Below are positions 12,193 to 45,626 of a DNA stretch of 64,000 nt, piece after piece. How positions within the stretch are numbered: position 1 is the stretch's first letter; each line of letters opens with the position of its first letter. The notes beneath the pieces were generated by a model that saw only the letters and a program-made list of their open reading frames with translations, was not told the DNA's origin and made no database searches. A program made the position numbers and the translations under genes. Where the stretch lies: assembly GCA_019359505.1 (NCBI GenBank), contig JAHHHD010000010.1, positions 1 to 64,000 of the forward strand. The letters are read 5' to 3'. Origin of the DNA: Drouetiella hepatica Uher 2000/2452 (lineage in GTDB: Bacteria; Cyanobacteriota; Cyanobacteriia; Elainellales; Elainellaceae).

Positions 12193-13638
12193 CTAGGCAA
12201 CCTTAGCAACCTGGAGAACCTTACGACGCATCTCCATAATGTCTCCGAGCGTGCTGGCAAAGCGGGGATTGCGAGTCAACAGCATTTGCAGCGTGTCAGC
12301 ATCTAAGATCATCAGTTCTAAGTCATCCAACGCAACGACCGAAACATCGCTGACCTGCTCAGACAAAAGCGATGCCTTCTCGCCAAAGATATCGCCCTGC
12401 GAGAGCCGAGCCACCTGCTGCCTGCCCGATCGCCCTGAAACCGACATTTCCGCATGTCCCTTTAGAACAATATATAGACCTGGCAAGCGATCGCCCTCTG
12501 CCACCACAATCTCATTGCTGCCATAGTCTTGGGTAACGGCGTTGCCATTGAGCTGGTCTATCAGCGTCGGAGCGACTGCGCTCAGGCTTGGAATAGAGTT
12601 CAGCGTTTTGGCAATCCGCACTGACGGATTTTCCACGGTAGGCAGAGAAATTTGAGCTTCATATTCTGTTGAAATTGGGTAGGGAATACTTAGCCCGTGG
12701 CGCTTGGCAACATACCAAAGGCGCGTCGAGAAATCGTTGCGAACCCCCAACGCTTTTTCATAGCTCTCTGCAAATAAACCAATTTTGTAGCTGATGTAGA
12801 AGTCGGCATAGGCTGTCGTCACAACCCAGGGGGGAGGATCTAGCAAAACTCCTTCGGTTTCGAGGGCGGCTTGCTTCAGAATTTGCTTAACTCGGTTGGG
12901 CGGATCATCATAGGAAAACCCAATCTCAAAGGTTTCTACATGTAGACGCGTTGGGCGGCTGAGATTTTTGAAGCTGCCTTTGGCTAACTCTGAATTGGGA
13001 ACCACCAGCAGATCTCGACTCCAGGTTTGCAGATGCACCGATCGCCAGGTTACTTCGATCACCTTGCCTTCATCATCACCGATGCGCACCCAGTCTCCGG
13101 CGGTGAGCGGACGCTCAAACAGCAGCGCAATCCCTGAGAAAAGGTTGCCTAAGCTGTCCTGTAAAGCCAAACCAATCACTAGCGATCCTACACCCAGAGC
13201 CGTGAGCAAACCGCCCAGATCGGCTCCCCAAACGCTGGAAAGGACGATCGCAATTCCCACTAAAATTAGGAAAAATCGGCTCAAGTCAAGAAATAGTTTG
13301 GGAGTTTGGGCTTGCCAGCTGCCAGCGCCTGCCTCCTCAAACAGCACAATGTTGATTAGCGTCAGAACGGCATAGATAATGAACACCCACAGCACCGATT
13401 CCACAACGCGAACCAGGCTAGAGTCCCGCGTCAGATTCAATACTTTGTGCAGCAGCAAAAATAGAGCCAGGGTGGGCAGCACCAAGTTCCGTAAAATGAG
13501 AATGGGAGCCACTAGCGATCGCTTCTTGCGCTCTAGTCGAGCAATCACTTCACCCAGCAAAAACATGAGCAGGGGAAATGCAATGACCAGCGCTCCAATC
13601 CAGGTCAACCAATCGGGCTTAACAATAAAGTCTGGCAT
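12193..13638 (-). CDS. MscS-superfamily channel with a C-terminal cyclic-nucleotide-binding-like domain
   Basis: This is a membrane channel of the bacterial CNG type. Four to five hydrophobic helices are followed by the MscS pore helix (GLALQDSLGNLFSGI), the beta domain (VRIGDDEGKVIEV) and a cNMP-binding fold from about residue 350. In its phosphate-binding cassette the Glu of FGE is kept (Glu420). By register with E. coli CRP, the arginine that binds the cyclic phosphate is Ser430 and the next serine is Asp431, so ordinary cAMP or cGMP binding is doubtful. I start it at the ATG at 13638. That ATG follows an AAGGAG site lying inside the last codons of the upstream sensor gene, whose TAA stop is 2 bases before it. 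The upstream extension to 13782 is a frame shadow. The two genes form one transcription unit. Confidence 0.88.
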   Translation of the reverse strand: MPDFIVKPDWLTWIGALVIAFPLLMFLLGEVIARLERKKRSLVAPILILRNLVLPTLALFLLLHKVLNLTRDSSLVRVVESVLWVFIIYAVLTLINIVLFEEAGAGSWQAQTPKLFLDLSRFFLILVGIAIVLSSVWGADLGGLLTALGVGSLVIGLALQDSLGNLFSGIALLFERPLTAGDWVRIGDDEGKVIEVTWRSVHLQTWSRDLLVVPNSELAKGSFKNLSRPTRLHVETFEIGFSYDDPPNRVKQILKQAALETEGVLLDPPPWVVTTAYADFYISYKIGLFAESYEKALGVRNDFSTRLWYVAKRHGLSIPYPISTEYEAQISLPTVENPSVRIAKTLNSIPSLSAVAPTLIDQLNGNAVTQDYGSNEIVVAEGDRLPGLYIVLKGHAEMSVSGRSGRQQVARLSQGDIFGEKASLLSEQVSDVSVVALDDLELMILDADTLQMLLTRNPRFASTLGDIMEMRRKVLQVAKVA

Positions 13639-13640
13639 GG

Positions 13641-15878
13641 TTACTCCTTGGCATGAGCGGATGACCCAGACAGAGCGATCGCCGGGACATCCTGTGCCAG
13701 AACATCCTGTGCCGGGACAGGATGTTCTGGAGCATCTTGAGCCGGAAGATCGGGCACAAAGTTCTGCCCTTTGACAGACCAAACAGGCACACTCGCCAGA
13801 CCTTTAACCTCTACATTGGCAATCCGCTCAAAGGAGTACAGGTCATGCAAATTGTCGTAGATAGGCTGAGTCACCTGAATGGTATTTTGCCCAGGCGAAG
13901 AGTGAATATCGTGAGCAATTTTCATGGTTTCTCCTGTTAGGGCATAGATAAAGCGAGTTTTGCCAACAATCCCACCCACTACAGATCCTGAGTGAATGCC
14001 AATGTCAAGGCTTAGATCAGTCTTCTGCTGTTGATTAAAACGTCGTATCACCTTGAGAATCTCAAAGGCAAAGTCCATCGTTCGCTTAATGTGATCGACT
14101 CGCGATATGGATAGTCCACAAACTGCGATATAAACGTTACCCACACTTCTCATTTTCTCAACCCCAAAGGGTTCAGCCGCTTCATCAAAAGCAGTAACGA
14201 TATCATTCAGCAAGGTAATGGTTTGGTCAGGTTGCAGTTGAGCAGATAGCTCATTAAAGCCTTCTATTTCGGCATATAAAACGGCAACGTTAGGAAAAAC
14301 ATCGGAGATTTGCTGTTCGCCACTCTTGAGTCGGGCGACGATCGGCGGCGGCAAAACGTTCAGCAATAGCCTTTCATTTTCATGCAGCGCTGTCTGAATC
14401 GTCTGATCCTTTTCATGCAGGCTATGCGCCATCTGATTAAAGGAGTGGGCGAGTTCACCAAATTCATCCTGCGATCGAATATTTACTGCTACATCGGTTT
14501 CACCCGCCTCAATTTGGCGAGTTCCGGAAATCAAGCGCTTGATAGGACGCACAAACAGACGAGACAGCCAGATCGAGAGCAGCGTCACCAACGGCACCAG
14601 AATGGCAGAGGCAACCAGCAGCCTACGGGTGAAGCGATCGACTGGAGCAAAGGCTTCTGACTGATCCATCTTGGCCACCAAACCCCAGTTGAAGTCTCCT
14701 AACTTGATCGGTTGAAAAGCAGAGAGAACCGACTCGCCGCGATAGTCCACGTAGGAGATAGTGCCTGTTTCACCTGCGATCGCCCTTTGTGGAGCCGTTG
14801 TCTGCACCTTCTGGGTCAAAATTGGCGTGCCTAGGCGCTTAATCTGTTCAATGATGTCTTTGGCAACACCTCTCGCTTGAAGCGCTTCGTAATACTGATC
14901 TGGGTTCTCAGCGAACAGGCGTGGCACTGAGCGAACCGAGGTGTCGGGCCCAACCAAAAACGTTTCTCCCGTTTTGCCCAGTCCTGTTTGCTGCCACTCG
15001 CCTCTGGAGGTCATGATCTGGTTGATGCGACTGTCTGGAATCTGGATCAGCAGCGCTCCAATAAAGTCAGTTTTATCGAAGATGGTTGTAGCGATAAAAG
15101 AGCTAGGTCGATTGCGCGAAGCTCGATAGAAGTCAAAATCTGCGCTGGTAACAAAGTTGGGATCTCTTGATTTACGAACTGTCTCCACTGCGTTTGCCAG
15201 ATTGCTGCTGGCGTAAGGCCCTAGATTAAGATTGCTGCCAAAATCCGCCTCTTTCAACGCTGAGTAAACAATGTTTCCTGTATCTACATCAACGAGGTAG
15301 AAATCATAGTAACCAAACTTTTCAACGATGCTCTCAACTAGAGGATGAAAGCGTTGATGAACACGGCTATAGTCGCTACCATCCAACGCATCAACTAGAG
15401 CAATCTTTTTGTCTAAGGGATTAGGATTGCTAACAATGTAGTGATACTGAAGATAGCTTTGCGCAGGAGTCTGAGGTAGATAGGTTTCGGCTAGAGGCGT
15501 ACTGCCGTCAGACAAGTTGCTCGACAGTCCAGGGATAAAGTCTTCTCGGTAAAATTTCTCAACGGACTGCTGCTGTCTTGAGGTCAAATTTACCGTGTTG
15601 AGCTTCTGATAAGCCGCCTTAAACCCTTTCATTGCGTCAATAATGGCAGGCGATTCGCTGAGAGTCAGAACGTGGTTTTCAGTAACTTGAAAGTAGGAAG
15701 AAATCGCCTCTGCTCTTTCAGTTCGGAGGCTAACCAGTTGGTTAAGAATACTGCTGGTCAAAGCCGTTTTGCCGCTGCTGTAGCCAATATAGCCAATAGT
15801 TAAAATGGAGGCAATGCTGATCAGCAGCAGTATGAGCAGCAGCTTCGATTGAATACTCAGCTTGTCAAGAAAGCGCAT
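13641..15878 (-). CDS. membrane sensor with HAMP and a degenerate class III cyclase domain
   Basis: The 745-residue receptor has a transmembrane helix at about 13-33, a Cache-like extracytoplasmic region (about 40-400), a second helix (about 405-430), HAMP (about 430-485) and a cyclase homology domain (about 525-705). The domain has lost its chemistry. The two metal-binding aspartates are Glu537 (YAEIEGF) and Asn581 (VGNVY). The positions of the transition-state Asn and Arg read Lys653 and Asp657. The intact cyclase at 44091-45626 keeps all four. A Pro/Asp-rich tail with AQDV repeats follows. It likely signals by binding or shape change rather than by making cNMP, and its partner is probably the channel encoded 2 bases downstream. 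It could still bind a nucleotide. Confidence 0.88.
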   Translation of the reverse strand: MRFLDKLSIQSKLLLILLLISIASILTIGYIGYSSGKTALTSSILNQLVSLRTERAEAISSYFQVTENHVLTLSESPAIIDAMKGFKAAYQKLNTVNLTSRQQQSVEKFYREDFIPGLSSNLSDGSTPLAETYLPQTPAQSYLQYHYIVSNPNPLDKKIALVDALDGSDYSRVHQRFHPLVESIVEKFGYYDFYLVDVDTGNIVYSALKEADFGSNLNLGPYASSNLANAVETVRKSRDPNFVTSADFDFYRASRNRPSSFIATTIFDKTDFIGALLIQIPDSRINQIMTSRGEWQQTGLGKTGETFLVGPDTSVRSVPRLFAENPDQYYEALQARGVAKDIIEQIKRLGTPILTQKVQTTAPQRAIAGETGTISYVDYRGESVLSAFQPIKLGDFNWGLVAKMDQSEAFAPVDRFTRRLLVASAILVPLVTLLSIWLSRLFVRPIKRLISGTRQIEAGETDVAVNIRSQDEFGELAHSFNQMAHSLHEKDQTIQTALHENERLLLNVLPPPIVARLKSGEQQISDVFPNVAVLYAEIEGFNELSAQLQPDQTITLLNDIVTAFDEAAEPFGVEKMRSVGNVYIAVCGLSISRVDHIKRTMDFAFEILKVIRRFNQQQKTDLSLDIGIHSGSVVGGIVGKTRFIYALTGETMKIAHDIHSSPGQNTIQVTQPIYDNLHDLYSFERIANVEVKGLASVPVWSVKGQNFVPDLPAQDAPEHPVPAQDVLAQDVPAIALSGSSAHAKE
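13697..13730 (-). repeat. hairpin inside the 3' end of the sensor gene
   Basis: CCAGAACATCCTGT and its exact complement flank a GCCGGG loop (14-base-pair stem). It lies within the coding region for the repetitive tail, about 60 bases before the channel start codon, so it could affect mRNA stability or coupling between the two genes. Confidence 0.7.
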
Positions 15879-16847: not shown

Positions 16848-18461
16848 TTAGCGATCGAACTCGACCTGTCCGTTATCCAGTTTGATGAGGCGATCGGCTA
16901 AGTGAAAATAGTGATCATCATGGCTGATCACAATCACAGTCTTGCCCTTTTGCTTCAAGCTCGGCAGAAACTGTCTGTAGAAAAGCTCTTTAAACACAGG
17001 ATCTTGATCGGCGGCCCACTCATCAAACAGATAAATCGGGCGGTCTTCTAAGTATGCCGTCAGCAGGGCAAGCCGCTTGCGTTGTCCTTGCGAAAGCGCG
17101 GTCGTCGAAAGCTTACCTCGCTCAATTTTGACTTTGTGATCAATCTGGAGCTTACTGAGATAATTCTGCGCCAAATGATCGAGATTGACCTGCTCCAATC
17201 CTAAAAGCCGCTCGAACAGGAAAAAATCTGCAAATACGACGGCAAAATGCTGACGATACCATTCCCGATTTTCATCCGTAATCGGCTGTTTGTCTAAAAA
17301 AATTGCGCCCGACTCAGGAATGTAAAGCCCGGTCAGCAGCTTAGCAAAGGTGGATTTGCCGCTGCCGTTTCCCCCGGCGATAAAGGTAATTTCGCCGGGA
17401 TAGAAGGTGATATCGAGCGCTCCCAGAACAAAAGGAGTATCTTCAGGCGATCGCTGATAGGGATACACCAAGTCTCGAAGTTCCAGGCTATGCCAGTCAG
17501 ACTCTGCTTTAGGCGGGCTTGAGAGTGAAGAGCGATCGCTTAAGGACAACCCCAAGTCCTGAATTTTTCGCAGGGCAATATTCGATTGGCTAATCACTGG
17601 AAAGCTATTGACGATGTTCTCCATCGGCATCGTCAGATAGATGAAAGCGAGGATATACCCAGAAATTGCCTCAGGTTGGATAGAGATCAGCTTAGGGAGC
17701 GCAAATAAAACGAACCCCACCGCGAAAAAGAACAGCAGCTTGCCCAAGCTAGAGGAGGCTGCAAACATCGTCAGTCCTCGAATGTTGTAGCGCCGGAAAT
17801 TGATTGCCGTGGGTTCAACTGCGTTTTCTAGAAACATTTGTCGCCGTTGGTAATGCAGCTTCAATTCTTTAATCCCTTCAGTGGTCGAACGGAAGTGATC
17901 AAATAAATAATCTTCCTCCTCACGCGCCAAAGCCAGCAGCTTTTCTCCTTGCCTCAAGAGCCGAATACAGCTCATAACCGCCGCCCCCATTAACGCGAAG
18001 ACCAGCAGCAGCGCCGTCCAGGAAAGCCAGGTAATGTAGATCAGGCAACCTACAACGATCGCCAGATCAATGCACAGCAACGGCAGGACAAACACGGCGC
18101 TAGTAATTGCTCGGACATCCTCTGTCAATGCTGCCAGAAGGCGCGGGTTGCCAATCCGCTCTAGATCGGTAAGTTCTGAAGCCAGAATTTGGCGAATTAA
18201 TCGCATTCGCAAGTGAAACACGGCATGGTGCGAGAGGCGAACCAACACCACCTGAGAGACAATGCTGGTGAGGAGGGCGATCGCTGCCAATCCTAAAAAC
18301 CCCAGCAGCAGCATCGGCGTAGAGGTACTCAAGGGGTGGCTGATGGCATAACTGATTAGCGCAATCAACCCGGCAGAGCTGATGCCGCTCACGAATCCGG
18401 TCAGGGCGGCGATCGTCATCATCTGCCAAGAAGATTGCAGCAAAAACGTCACCAGGCTCAT
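16848..18461 (-). CDS. SyrD/PvdE-type ABC exporter (fused membrane and ATPase domains)
   Basis: The 537-residue half-transporter has six hydrophobic helices (about 1-300) followed by an ATPase: Walker A GGNGSGKS at 363-370, signature LSQGQRKRLA, and Walker B YLFDEWAADQDP. The FDEWAADQDP stretch is typical of the cyclic-peptide/siderophore exporter group (SyrD, PvdE, YojI). I start it at 18461, because its ATG overlaps the TGA stop of squalene-hopene cyclase (ATGA), which implies translational coupling. An upstream start at 18488 would add nine residues. The cargo is unknown; position suggests a hopanoid or lipid-linked product. Confidence 0.9.
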   Translation of the reverse strand: MSLVTFLLQSSWQMMTIAALTGFVSGISSAGLIALISYAISHPLSTSTPMLLLGFLGLAAIALLTSIVSQVVLVRLSHHAVFHLRMRLIRQILASELTDLERIGNPRLLAALTEDVRAITSAVFVLPLLCIDLAIVVGCLIYITWLSWTALLLVFALMGAAVMSCIRLLRQGEKLLALAREEEDYLFDHFRSTTEGIKELKLHYQRRQMFLENAVEPTAINFRRYNIRGLTMFAASSSLGKLLFFFAVGFVLFALPKLISIQPEAISGYILAFIYLTMPMENIVNSFPVISQSNIALRKIQDLGLSLSDRSSLSSPPKAESDWHSLELRDLVYPYQRSPEDTPFVLGALDITFYPGEITFIAGGNGSGKSTFAKLLTGLYIPESGAIFLDKQPITDENREWYRQHFAVVFADFFLFERLLGLEQVNLDHLAQNYLSKLQIDHKVKIERGKLSTTALSQGQRKRLALLTAYLEDRPIYLFDEWAADQDPVFKELFYRQFLPSLKQKGKTVIVISHDDHYFHLADRLIKLDNGQVEFDR

Positions 18462-20446
18462 GGTGACAGCCTCGCGGATAGGTGCCAATATTGCCCTAGC
18501 GCCGTCAGGGGGAAGTGCTGCTGGTAGAGATGGTACTTGAGATAAAAATGGCTGGGAAATCCTGTCCCCGTGAATTCGGCTTCGTCCCAGGTGCCATCAG
18601 GACGCTGCGTATCCACAAGATATTGGATGCCTTGCCGAATCGCCCCTACTGTAGCGGTCTGAGCTGTATTAGTCTGATCTGGGAAGGTTTGCATTGCTTC
18701 TCTGGCTGCCATCAAGCCAATCAGTGCCCATGCCGTTTGGGATGCTGTGCTGATGCCCTGTCCTTTGAGTGCTGGATTGTCGTAGCTCCGACAGGTTTCT
18801 CCCCAGCCGCCATCGGAATTTTGGCAGCTTACCAACCATTCCGCACCGCGCTCCATAGCCTGACGACAAGGCGCACTCAGGGGCTGATTGGGGGAGGCGA
18901 TCGCCGCCAATGCCGCCAACACGCCGCTTGTTCCATAGATATAGTTGACCCCCCAACGCCCAAACCAGCAGCCTTCTGGCTCCTGTTGCTGAATCAAATA
19001 AGTGAGGGCGCGATCGATCCTCTCGAATTCCAGATGATTGTCTCTGCGGCGACTTTCTCCCAGACAGCCCGCCATTTCCAGGACTCGCGCCGTCACATCT
19101 GCGGTGTTGGGATCAATCATTGCCTTAAGATCGGCATAGGGCAAAGCATTGAGCCAATCTTGGTTGTTATTCAGATCAAAGGCTGCCCAGCCGCCCTCCC
19201 GGCACTGCATCGTGGCAATCCAGGCAACTGCCCGATCGATCGCCGCCTGCTTTAATGCCTCGTTGGGCAGTTGCACCTGCTTTAGCGCCATCACAACAAC
19301 CGCCGAATCATCAACATCGGGGTAAAAGCGATTCTCAAACTCAAACGCCCAGGCACCGGGTTTGCCTTGACGATTCTTCACCGCCCAATCGCCATAGTCC
19401 AGAATCTGCTTGCTCAGCAGCCATTCGCCACCCTGCACCAGCGCCGGATGATCGGGGGCTAGACCAGAGGCTGCGAGCGATCGCATCACCAGCGCCGTAT
19501 CCCACACTGGAGAGACACAGGGCTGAATCCGATAGGTGGCAGACGTTTCAATAGCGAAGCGATCGACCGCCTGCAATCCTCGTTCAACGATCGGATCGTG
19601 GGCATCATACTCTAGACAGCGTAGAGCCAGTAAGGAGTTAAGCATTGCTGGAATGATGCCACCCCAGTCGCCTGTTGCTTCCTGCCGCTCCAAAATCCAG
19701 CGTTCTGCGGCGTTGATGCCCTGTTGCCGAAAAGGAATGAGATTGAAGCGTTCGGCAAACTTAAACAATCCATCTAACGTGAGGAAAAGATCTGTCCAGT
19801 CGTGATTACGAGACAGCGCATATCTTGCCGATCCCTCATTTTCAACGTAGAGTTCATCCAGATTAAAGCCCGGAGTTGTGGGAAAAATGGGCTGGCGATC
19901 GAACACAATCAGCAGGGGGACTGTGCTGCCTCTTGCCCAGCTTGACAGCTCGTAAATATTGAAGAAAAAACGATCGGGCAACAGCATGATCCAGGGAGGC
20001 AGTGAAGGGATGCCGCGCCAGTCAAAACAGCCGATTAGCGCTAGGTGAAACTTGGTGAAAATGCGCGATCGCCGGATGCCGCCCCGTTCCAAAATAAAAG
20101 CCTTCGCCTGTTGCAGCGCCGGGTCGCTGGCAGAGACTCCCAAGAGCCGGAGCGCCATGTATGCCTCAATGGAGGTGCTGAGATTGCCTCCATCGCCATA
20201 AAACAGCTCCCAGCCGCCGTGGGATCGCTGCTGCTGCCGAAAGTAGATTTCAGCCTTATGGAGGGGTCTAGACGCATCAGTTCCCCAAATCTTGTGCAAC
20301 AGCACCACCTCAGCCGTCATCGTCACATTCGACTCTAGCTCTGACCACCAATAGCCTGCCGAGTTTTGAATCGAGAGCAGGTAGCCCTGGCTGGCAGCGA
20401 TCGCGGTTTGAACGGCTGGTGTTGTTTCCCGATCTTGAATTTGCAT
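18458..20446 (-). CDS. shc: squalene-hopene cyclase
   Basis: The monotopic membrane enzyme folds squalene into hopene (and hopanol), the first committed step of hopanoid synthesis. The catalytic protonating motif DVDD is at 377-380, almost the same position as in the Alicyclobacillus enzyme. Several QW repeats are visible (for example QNSDGGWGE and QRPDGTWDE, both near the C terminus). The length of 662 is typical. The gene is the first of a two-gene unit with the ABC exporter and is divergent from hpnB across about 200 bases. Confidence 0.97.
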   Translation of the reverse strand: MQIQDRETTPAVQTAIAASQGYLLSIQNSAGYWWSELESNVTMTAEVVLLHKIWGTDASRPLHKAEIYFRQQQRSHGGWELFYGDGGNLSTSIEAYMALRLLGVSASDPALQQAKAFILERGGIRRSRIFTKFHLALIGCFDWRGIPSLPPWIMLLPDRFFFNIYELSSWARGSTVPLLIVFDRQPIFPTTPGFNLDELYVENEGSARYALSRNHDWTDLFLTLDGLFKFAERFNLIPFRQQGINAAERWILERQEATGDWGGIIPAMLNSLLALRCLEYDAHDPIVERGLQAVDRFAIETSATYRIQPCVSPVWDTALVMRSLAASGLAPDHPALVQGGEWLLSKQILDYGDWAVKNRQGKPGAWAFEFENRFYPDVDDSAVVVMALKQVQLPNEALKQAAIDRAVAWIATMQCREGGWAAFDLNNNQDWLNALPYADLKAMIDPNTADVTARVLEMAGCLGESRRRDNHLEFERIDRALTYLIQQQEPEGCWFGRWGVNYIYGTSGVLAALAAIASPNQPLSAPCRQAMERGAEWLVSCQNSDGGWGETCRSYDNPALKGQGISTASQTAWALIGLMAAREAMQTFPDQTNTAQTATVGAIRQGIQYLVDTQRPDGTWDEAEFTGTGFPSHFYLKYHLYQQHFPLTALGQYWHLSARLSP

Positions 20447-44090: not shown

Positions 44091-45626
44091 TCATAACTTG
44101 CCTATGAGCCAATGGGTTGCGATTTCGCCAAAGCCCCGAACTTCAATGACTCCCCGACGCTCAAGCCAATATTTGTTTTTCAGCCGATCGAAGGTGGCAG
44201 GAGCGATCTGAATGTATCCTGCTTGCCCTTGGGTTTCCATGCGGCTAGCGAGATTAACGGTTTCGCCCCATAGGTCATAGGAAAACTTTTTTGTGCCAAT
44301 CACGCCTGCTACAACGGGCCCTGTATTGATGCCAATTCTGAGCTGAAAGGGTTTGCCTTGGCGCGTCGGAAATTTTGCTACTGTCTGCAACATGGCTAAC
44401 GCCATGTCTGCTACTGCCTCAACATGGTCGCTCTGTGGATTGGGCAAGCCCCCTGCAACCATATACTCATCGCCAATGGTTTTAATTTTTTCTAAGCCGT
44501 ACTGCTCGGCAAGTTGGTCAAACGCCGAAAAAATTTGGTTGAGTATCTCCACCATTTCTTTGGGAGGAACTTGAGCCGCGAAGGGGGTAAAGTTAACCAA
44601 ATCGGCAAACATAACCGTCACGTCGGCAAAGCTGTCAGCGATCGTTTCGGGCTTGCGTTTTAGGCGCTCGGCGATCGACTGTGGCAAAATGCTGAGCAGC
44701 AGCCGCTCGGCTTCTTGGCGCTGGAGACGCAGCTCGGCTTCAGTAAGGCGACGCTCGGTCGTGTCTTGTACGGTACCTTCGTAATAGAGAACCTCGCCGC
44801 TCTCGCCGCGCACGGCTCGAACATTTTCTGAAATCCAAATAATGCCGCCGTCTTTGCGGTAGACCTGCGACTCAAAATCCTCTACTTTGGCGTAGCGCCG
44901 CAGATATGCGTTTAGCTCTTCTCTGCGACCCGGACGGACGTAAAGACTACAAATATTGGTGACAGAAATCATCAGCTCTTCTGCCGAGGCATAGCCGTAA
45001 ATTTTGGCTAGGGTAGGATTAGCGCTGATGTAGCGACCGCTGGAGGTGACTTGAAAAAGCCCTTCTAGACAGTTTTCAAAAATACTGCGGTACTTATCCT
45101 CTGCCTTCTGACGTTCCGTAATCTCGTGATGCAGCCGCTCATTTTGGAGCTGAAGCTCTTGGCGGAGTCGCTGTAACGTCAGGTGAGTCTCGACACGAGC
45201 CAATACTTCTGCAAGTTGAAAGGGCTTCGTGATGTAGTCTACGCCGCCCACAGCAAAGGCTCTGATCTTGTCCAGCACCTCATCTAAAGCGCTGATAAAA
45301 ATGATGGGAATATCGCGGGTCTGCTCGCTGCTCTTGAGCTTTTGACAGATGGTATAGCCGTCCATTTCAGGCATACAGATGTCCATTAAAATCAGCTCAG
45401 GCGGCAGGGTGGCGATCGCCTCCAATGCCAGCTTCCCCGTCTTTACGGCTCTGACCGCATACCCTTTCTGGGTTAGCAAACGAGAAAGCAGCACCAGATT
45501 ATTTGGCGCATCATCTACGATTAAAATACTTCCCCGGCTGGCTTCGGGTGGGTCGCTGTTCATCGTCCCCATTTGACCGTCGATTAGAGTAAATTTTCCG
45601 CTGGAGCCGTACACAGCGTCTAGCAT
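44091..45626 (-). CDS. response regulator - PAS - class III nucleotide cyclase
   Basis: This cytosolic signalling protein has a receiver domain (about 33-150, IVDDAPNN and phosphoacceptor Asp in LILMDICMPEMDG), a coiled coil, PAS with PAC (about 175-300), and a cyclase domain (about 335-505). Unlike the sensor at 13641, the cyclase residues are complete: metal Asp342 and Asp386, base-selecting Lys382, and transition-state Asn458 and Arg462. Glu455 replaces the usual Asp/Thr at the other base-selecting position, so adenylate cyclase activity is likely but not certain. Starts at 45572 or 45563 would also be reasonable. Confidence 0.92.
   Translation of the reverse strand: MLDAVYGSSGKFTLIDGQMGTMNSDPPEASRGSILIVDDAPNNLVLLSRLLTQKGYAVRAVKTGKLALEAIATLPPELILMDICMPEMDGYTICQKLKSSEQTRDIPIIFISALDEVLDKIRAFAVGGVDYITKPFQLAEVLARVETHLTLQRLRQELQLQNERLHHEITERQKAEDKYRSIFENCLEGLFQVTSSGRYISANPTLAKIYGYASAEELMISVTNICSLYVRPGRREELNAYLRRYAKVEDFESQVYRKDGGIIWISENVRAVRGESGEVLYYEGTVQDTTERRLTEAELRLQRQEAERLLLSILPQSIAERLKRKPETIADSFADVTVMFADLVNFTPFAAQVPPKEMVEILNQIFSAFDQLAEQYGLEKIKTIGDEYMVAGGLPNPQSDHVEAVADMALAMLQTVAKFPTRQGKPFQLRIGINTGPVVAGVIGTKKFSYDLWGETVNLASRMETQGQAGYIQIAPATFDRLKNKYWLERRGVIEVRGFGEIATHWLIGKL

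Follow-up and report, generated by a model that had tools for sequence, protein, structure and literature searches.

A mainly cyanobacterial family of cyclase-fold sensors paired with MscS-type channels that may have moved away from ordinary cyclic AMP signaling

Background

Bacterial cyclic nucleotide gated (bCNG) channels combine the MscS channel core with a cyclic-nucleotide-binding domain (CNBD), and those CNBDs that bind cyclic nucleotide bear a signature arginine in the phosphate-binding cassette (PBC), with residue roles as in CRP and protein kinase A. Caldwell in 2010 and Malcolm in 2012 reportedly described such channels as members of the MscS superfamily with the CNBD at the C-terminus, and the title of the Malcolm work is said to present Ss-bCNGa, a bCNG channel that we take to originate from Synechocystis, as gating in response to mechanical tension. 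Here we analyze a gene pair from a 64,000-nucleotide stretch of the cyanobacterium Drouetiella hepatica Uher 2000/2452 (contig JAHHHD010000010.1, positions 1 to 64,000; the whole stretch is hereafter the window). The first gene encodes a membrane-bound sensor that has a class III cyclase fold, and directly downstream of it lies the gene for an MscS-type channel with a C-terminal CNBD. In genomic islands of marine Synechococcus, adenylate cyclases lie near a cyclic AMP (cAMP)-regulated MscS channel, according to PMC7522525. The parts of the window pair, namely, bCNG channels, class III cyclases, and cyclases in the vicinity of MscS channels in marine Synechococcus, are already known.

Annotations of a cyclase and of a cyclic-nucleotide-binding domain are commonly read as cAMP signaling, and the window holds a dedicated pair that bears both names. 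An earlier note on this DNA had suggested that the two partners lost standard cAMP chemistry together, such that the sensor would gate the channel by direct contact or through another nucleotide.

Results

The expected phosphate-contact arginine is gone from all 132 readable channels related to that of the window and from 100 of the 113 sensors with a readable cyclase domain, whereas it is kept in 30 of 32 other MscS-CNBD channels. The set was assembled by a class-wide search (388 genomes, four candidates scored in each; 79 had a channel at E <= 1e-60) together with a scan of named genomes for channel relatives (the best 80 of 355 used), which yielded 170 loci, denoted below by L numbers, 137 of them with distinct channels. 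The counts refer to sequences, many of them close kin, rather than to events, and, because the wider genome searches scored the four or five best candidates per genome, the number of copies per genome may be an underestimate. We define the operon family by the presence of an open reading frame (ORF) resembling the window sensor, on the same strand and ending no more than 400 bases upstream of the channel; the window conforms to this definition, as do, in total, 114 of the 137 distinct channels (the sensor of L136 is a fragment).

At the PBC arginine site, the 137 channels have serine in 120 cases, alanine in 7, threonine in 4, methionine in a single channel (L120, whose end looks frame-shifted), and a gap in 5. 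The serine of the window channel, Ser430, is therefore the norm of the set and not an event peculiar to the window. Among the other MscS-CNBD channels, the arginine is present in all 17 examined from the phylum of Aeoliella (17 of 19 matches, leaving aside the channel of Aeoliella itself and the partial L266), none of which has a window-sensor-like ORF in the available sequence, although for L282 nothing lies upstream, and in all 13 cyanobacterial channels (L321-L333) that were found via an arginine-bearing query and not via the window channel. Class III cyclase-like ORFs occur in the fetched flanks of 3 of these 17 (L276, L277, L283) and 10 of these 13 channels, in some cases non-adjacent or on the opposite strand. 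Every one of the 15 whole cyclase domains among them retains the Asp, Lys, Asp, Asn, and Arg of the catalytic set, the purine-specifying Asp being replaced by Ala or Thr; the three that were run through Pfam are CHASE2-cyclases, not dCache-HAMP proteins.

The residue assignments in the window itself are confirmed. Ser430 is aligned by phmmer with the PBC arginine of the cGMP-dependent kinase 3shr, and MAFFT concurs, in agreement with the earlier note, which had placed Ser430 and Asp431 at the Arg and Ser positions of the cassette. The window channel thus has the MscS pore helix, the beta domain, and the C-terminal cNMP-binding domain of a bCNG channel, with serine in place of the PBC arginine. 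In the sensor, none of the six canonical catalytic residues is present: Glu537, Arg577, Asn581, Ala646, Lys653, and Asp657 occupy the sites of D256, K296, D300, D365, N372, and R376 of Rv1625c, the roles of which are given in PMC4174876, where phosphate binding by Arg376 is a predicted function. The six window sites are spaced exactly as in Rv1625c, with a constant offset of 281, and are gap-free across 31 aligned sequences. The four substitutions that the earlier note had named (Glu537, Asn581, Lys653, and Asp657) are accordingly real, the gap-free alignment and the Rv1625c spacing being in agreement, and its list has to be extended by the losses at Arg577 and Ala646; overall, alignment of both domains with known members upheld its catalytic and PBC assignments. 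The domain nonetheless has the Guanylate_cyc fold, and its AlphaFold 2 (AF2) model (predicted local distance difference test 87.7) best matches the bacterial cyclase 5o5l/5o5k and Rv1625c (4p2f). With the metal-binding Asp pair, the transition-state Asn and Arg, and the purine-specifying Lys and Asp all replaced, the window cyclase domain is probably chemically dead.

Degeneration on this scale is unusual even within the family. Among the 113 readable sensors, all six residues are found in 3 (L088, L220, and L235), five in 45, and none in 5 (the window, C11, L141, L125, and L135), so that the loss of catalytic residues in the window exceeds chance expectation. Both metal Asps are kept in 46 sensors and the transition-state Arg in 13. 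The three complete sensors adjoin serine-bearing channels; because the PBC arginine is absent beside intact cyclase domains, the cyclase losses of the window and the change in its PBC are not one event, and the joint loss originally proposed for the window does not stand. What does hold, at the level of the family, is the departure of both partners from standard cAMP chemistry, given that the full catalytic set survives in so few sensors and the PBC arginine in no readable channel. Lysine or arginine is found two positions downstream of the transition-state Arg site (R+2) in 37 of the 46 metal-intact sensors and in 14 of the 67 metal-lost ones. In phylogenetically independent pairs, however, the presence of a basic residue at R or R+2 is not tied to the state of the metal site, and we rejected the idea that R+2 replaces the transition-state Arg. 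In the sensors of L060-L063 and L119, the second metal Asp is replaced by Ser and the Arg is kept, partly as in mammalian C2 domains, and the partner channels have Ala at the site of the CRP Glu72 equivalent (hereafter the channel Glu; Glu420 in the window).

The channel Glu appears to be the residue that tracks cyclase competence, and the window keeps it. Of the 114 pairs, 8 had broken or missing sites; a tree of the other 106 was built with the PBC and catalytic columns excluded. Under a definition of metal-intact (both Asps present) that was chosen after the tables were seen, 44 pairs have an intact metal site and the Glu, none has an intact metal site without the Glu, 44 have lost the metal site and keep the Glu, and 18 lack both; the tree requires at least 8 changes at the Glu position and at least 9 at the metal site. 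The Pagel test gave a likelihood ratio (LR) of 13.3 (p 0.0097) for the whole tree and 15.0 (p 0.0047) for the 58-row main clade; on a channel-only tree, the values were 12.7 and 16.6, respectively. In simulations of the main clade under the independent model, 0 of 367 reached 15.0, the 99% point being 9.0. We further scanned main-clade columns with one side fixed each time, the metal state for the channel scan and the Glu state for the sensor scan. Among 258 sensor columns with 4-16 departures, the first metal site (Asp537 in the window numbering) ranked first, with an LR of 15.0 against 8.1 for the next, and the transition-state Asn was third. Conversely, of the 84 channel columns that depart in 4-9 rows, Glu420 alone had its departures confined to metal-lost rows, and it ranked first by LR among the 41 that were tested (15.0, next 7.9). 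The first metal Asp is lost and the Glu kept in the C15 clade, L066, L118, and L194.

The degenerate cyclase domains do not look abandoned. Nei-Gojobori estimates of omega, the ratio of nonsynonymous to synonymous divergence, for the cyclase domain in 19 pairs, in which some rows recur, ranged from 0.012 to 0.222 in the 14 metal-lost pairs, where they are rough given that synonymous divergence (dS) exceeds 1 in 8 of the 14, and from 0.014 to 0.146 in 4 metal-intact pairs. In the remaining pair, the window and L057, the cyclase domain is saturated in dS and gives no omega value, and for the MscS part of the window channel, omega is about 0.1 at a dS of 2.5. Such low values imply that the degenerate domains appear to be maintained, at least in relatives.

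The two genes of the window (Table 1) are separated by 2 bases (13639-13640), and the ribosome-binding site of the channel lies within the last codons of the sensor, both as the earlier note had described. Foldseek matches the channel model best to MscS and YnaI, and the predicted template modeling score of 0.34 limits the support from this model to the fold. No tandem repeat was found in the sensor tail. All ORFs were translated from stop to stop, so that some N-terminal letters are not real protein. At 16848-20446 of the window, an ORF resembling an ABC transporter and one resembling a squalene-hopene cyclase (both by eye) overlap each other; neither seems connected with the sensor-channel pair.

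Table 1. Features of the sensor-channel pair, in window positions
Feature	Positions	Strand	Basis or remark
Sensor gene, 745 aa	13641..15878	(-)	dCache-like, HAMP, and class III cyclase-like parts, then a Pro-rich tail; the tail and the membrane spans were assigned by eye
dCache_1 match, sensor residues 190-402	14673..15311	(-)	Pfam, 29.7 bits, under the cut-off of 45
HAMP, sensor residues 437-489	14412..14570	(-)	Pfam
Class III cyclase-like domain (Guanylate_cyc), sensor residues 528-700	13779..14297	(-)	Pfam; 0/6 canonical catalytic residues
Glu537, metal-Asp 1 position (Rv1625c D256)	14268..14270	(-)	Alignment
Arg577, purine-specifying Lys position (Rv1625c K296)	14148..14150	(-)	Alignment
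Asn581, metal-Asp 2 position (Rv1625c D300)	14136..14138	(-)	Alignment
Ala646, purine-specifying Asp position (Rv1625c D365)	13941..13943	(-)	Alignment
Lys653, transition-state Asn position (Rv1625c N372)	13920..13922	(-)	Alignment
Asp657, transition-state Arg position (Rv1625c R376)	13908..13910	(-)	Alignment
His659	13902..13904	(-)	Common to 13/14 tree rows of the window's subclade
AAGGAG ribosome-binding site of channel	13644..13649	(-)	Within the final sensor codons; 5 bases separate it from the channel ATG (read directly)
Channel gene, 481 aa	12193..13638	(-)	ATG at 13638, stop ends at 12193; MscS core and C-terminal CNBD
MscS pore helix, beta and C-terminal domains, channel residues 119-318	12685..13284	(-)	Pfam MS_channel 1st/2nd/3rd; Foldseek
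cNMP_binding domain, channel residues 371-457	12268..12528	(-)	Pfam PF00027, E 3.9e-16
Glu420, CRP Glu72 position, retained	12379..12381	(-)	Alignment; in 106 tree pairs lost only with the cyclase metal site
Lys421	12376..12378	(-)	Present in 13/14 rows of the window's subclade on the tree; main-clade channels mostly have Met
Ser430-Asp431, PBC Arg and next position	12346..12351	(-)	phmmer, MAFFT

The genome of the window carries three such pairs, those of the window, C15, and C11. The C11 sensor (L019:2129-4729), which lies upstream of its own MscS-CNBD channel, is another that retains none of the six residues, and it has a C-terminal globin domain after the cyclase fold (PF00042, E 7e-14), as might be expected of a relay module; it is possibly a heme-sensing pseudo-cyclase. 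By eye, the sensor tails of L141 and L131 look similar. At its end, the C11 channel gene overlaps an ORF (L019:6463-7542) that by eye resembles a PstS-kind lipoprotein substrate-binding protein.

Beyond this genome, the named channel relatives, among the best 80 of 355, are nearly all cyanobacterial. The non-cyanobacterial titles, both with a sensor, are L229 (Aeoliella) and L233 (a metagenome-assembled genome named as a proteobacterium). Twenty-three of the 137 channels have no sensor according to the family definition; three of these have less than 700 bases of upstream sequence, and in L169, a window-like sensor lies about 550 bases further up. The short ORFs directly 5' of the channel in L096, L102, L201, and L169 seem unrelated to the sensor on reading.

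Discussion

The absence of the PBC arginine throughout the operon family suggests that its members may signal by something other than ordinary cAMP, and the best reading of the pair, judged from sequence comparison, seems to be that of a co-diverged sensor-channel family. Under the scenario that we favor, the dCache-like/HAMP membrane sensor with its class III cyclase fold presumably controls the downstream MscS-type channel via the CNBD. In the main clade, the metal site would produce or bind a nucleotide that the CNBD then senses; given that the expected phosphate contacts are changed on both sides, this nucleotide need not be cAMP. In the subclade of the window, the cyclase domain would have turned into a pseudo-enzyme, and a ligand-driven HAMP rearrangement of the dimer would be passed to the cytosolic CNBD by contact and not by diffusing cAMP. 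For this subclade, a pseudo-cyclase relay of this kind is probably the most likely single account, if a tentative one. The broader proposition, that the family as a whole left cAMP, with the cyclase fold repeatedly made into a non-catalytic relay that gates the CNBD channel by contact or by a nucleotide other than cAMP and with the Glu lost only where the metal site had failed, is possible but has to be put with greater reserve.

Several observations weigh against these propositions. The association between the first metal site and the channel Glu in the main clade favors a nucleotide link over contact. It is also incomplete: the first metal Asp on its own was not significantly associated with the Glu on the whole channel-only tree (p 0.10); an independent-pairs sign test, which has low power with 7 supported pairs, found about 3.5 going the same way and none the opposite way (p 0.125); and, among the 14 metal-lost rows of the main clade, 6 lack the Glu and 8 keep it. 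In the subclade of the window, 11 of 14 rows retain the Glu despite changed metal sites, which implies that the pocket may still bind something, and the changes from Asp to Glu, Asp to Asn, and Asn to Lys in the cyclase domain could leave weak metal or nucleotide binding. Like the window sensor, those of L111 and L228 have lysine in place of the transition-state Asn, although both of their metal Asps are kept. Seven window-like channels, of Crocosphaera/Cyanothece type where named (L059, L167, L168, L170, L172, L173, and L174), have no adjacent sensor, which suggests that the channel may work without this neighbor; the genome of L167 encodes a solitary sensor at another locus (L290), in which the six catalytic sites read N-S-T-N-K-F, all of them non-canonical. 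Finally, arginine and sensor do not sort cleanly. L271 and L272, from the phylum of the L233 genome, have Glu at the PBC arginine site with no window-like sensor within about 1.5 kb. L273 bears the arginine and has no window-like sensor along its 11.4 kb of sequence, and it branches within the family (support 81), so that the arginine was either lost more than once or regained. The prediction that the losses in the two partners co-occur in other genomes is thus borne out as a family-wide pattern but not as a simple rule, which these three loci break, and no readable channel of the set bears the arginine to serve as a contrast.

Some of the same observations lead to a different account, in which the cyclase domain of the window, through some atypical chemistry, would still bind a nucleoside triphosphate or generate small amounts of a nucleotide, and the CNBD would recognize a ribose-containing ligand without the canonical phosphate contact. 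The 45 sensors with five of the six residues, the frequent basic residue at R+2 in metal-intact sensors, and the loss of the channel Glu only together with the metal site all fit, as do Glu537, Lys653, and, within the PBC, Lys421 of the window itself. We nevertheless consider residual nucleotide chemistry rather unlikely for the window, where all six residues are missing and Arg577 and Ala646 replace the purine selectors. Nor, across the family, is a basic residue at R or R+2 tied to the metal site in independent pairs.

Less probable again is that the channel answers ordinary cAMP from other cyclases, the sensor being vestigial or modulatory. Such cyclases are at hand, as the same genome has full D-K-D-D-N-R cyclases, and one of these, in which REC-like and PAS-like regions can be discerned by eye, is encoded within the window (44091-45626, minus strand); some channels have no sensor next to them; and bCNG channels are, by their titles, cyclic nucleotide gated. 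The complete absence of the PBC arginine from the set is difficult to reconcile with this possibility, all the more so because at least 4 (L144, L145, L146, and L151) of the 22 CNBD matches in the same genome show the R-S motif by eye, and so are the retention of the sensor next to the channel in most of the family and the low omega of its relatives.

Two further alternatives seem quite improbable. The window domain could pair with a different cyclase encoded in the genome to form a heterodimer, after the manner of mammalian C1/C2; L060-L063 are partly C2-like, with the second metal Asp changed to Ser and the Asn and Arg kept (the first metal Asp is kept as well), and three paralogous pairs coexist in the window genome. 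The window, however, lacks the residues of both the C1 and the C2 type, the C15 paralog lacks the Arg and the first metal Asp, and the C11 paralog has nothing left of the catalytic set. With as little confidence, one could see in the channel a tension-gated osmotic valve whose assembly or threshold is tuned by the CNBD and the sensor, in line with the title of the work on Ss-bCNGa, should that channel belong to this family, but this leaves the dedicated sensor and the correlated residue losses without explanation. Neutral decay, with the cyclase domain a dying remnant, is the least credible and already disfavored, the repeated loss of catalytic residues across the family being outweighed by the low omega in the metal-lost pairs of relatives, open frames, and a sensor that still adjoins the channel in 114 of the 137 loci.

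The pseudo-cyclase relay, then, is what we would carry forward for the subclade of the window. The arginine contrast and the link between the metal Asps and the channel Glu make gating of an MscS channel by a pseudo-cyclase directly testable, along with the question of what a CNBD reads once the usual hold on cAMP is lost.

Comparison with described systems

The window channel shares with the bCNG channels the order of domains, an MscS core followed by a CNBD; it differs in having Ser for the PBC arginine expected of CNBDs that bind cyclic nucleotide and in having a dedicated upstream sensor with a cyclase fold. Degenerate CNBDs as such have been described, in a Plasmodium protein, in PMC12422582. 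By titles and abstract openings, no description of the pair, of the lack of the PBC arginine, or of the Asp-Glu association was found in the open-licence literature. Pycsar couples the pyrimidine cyclase PycC with a CNBD-bearing effector in a defense locus. PADLOC gives weak hits to it (E 1e-4 to 1e-5), limited to the cyclase-like and CNBD domains that both share, and the window pair is a membrane sensor with an MscS channel. With Rv1625c and mammalian adenylyl cyclase, the window domain shares the predicted fold, and with Rv1625c, the spacing of the six sites, whereas the six residues themselves are all replaced. Comparable in layout are the CHASE2-cyclase loci of cyanobacteria and of the Aeoliella phylum, where a class III cyclase likewise lies near an MscS-CNBD channel; there, however, the Asp, Lys, Asp, Asn, and Arg of the cyclase are kept throughout, the channels have the PBC arginine, and the sensory module, in the three cases tested, is CHASE2 and not the dCache-HAMP arrangement of the window sensor.

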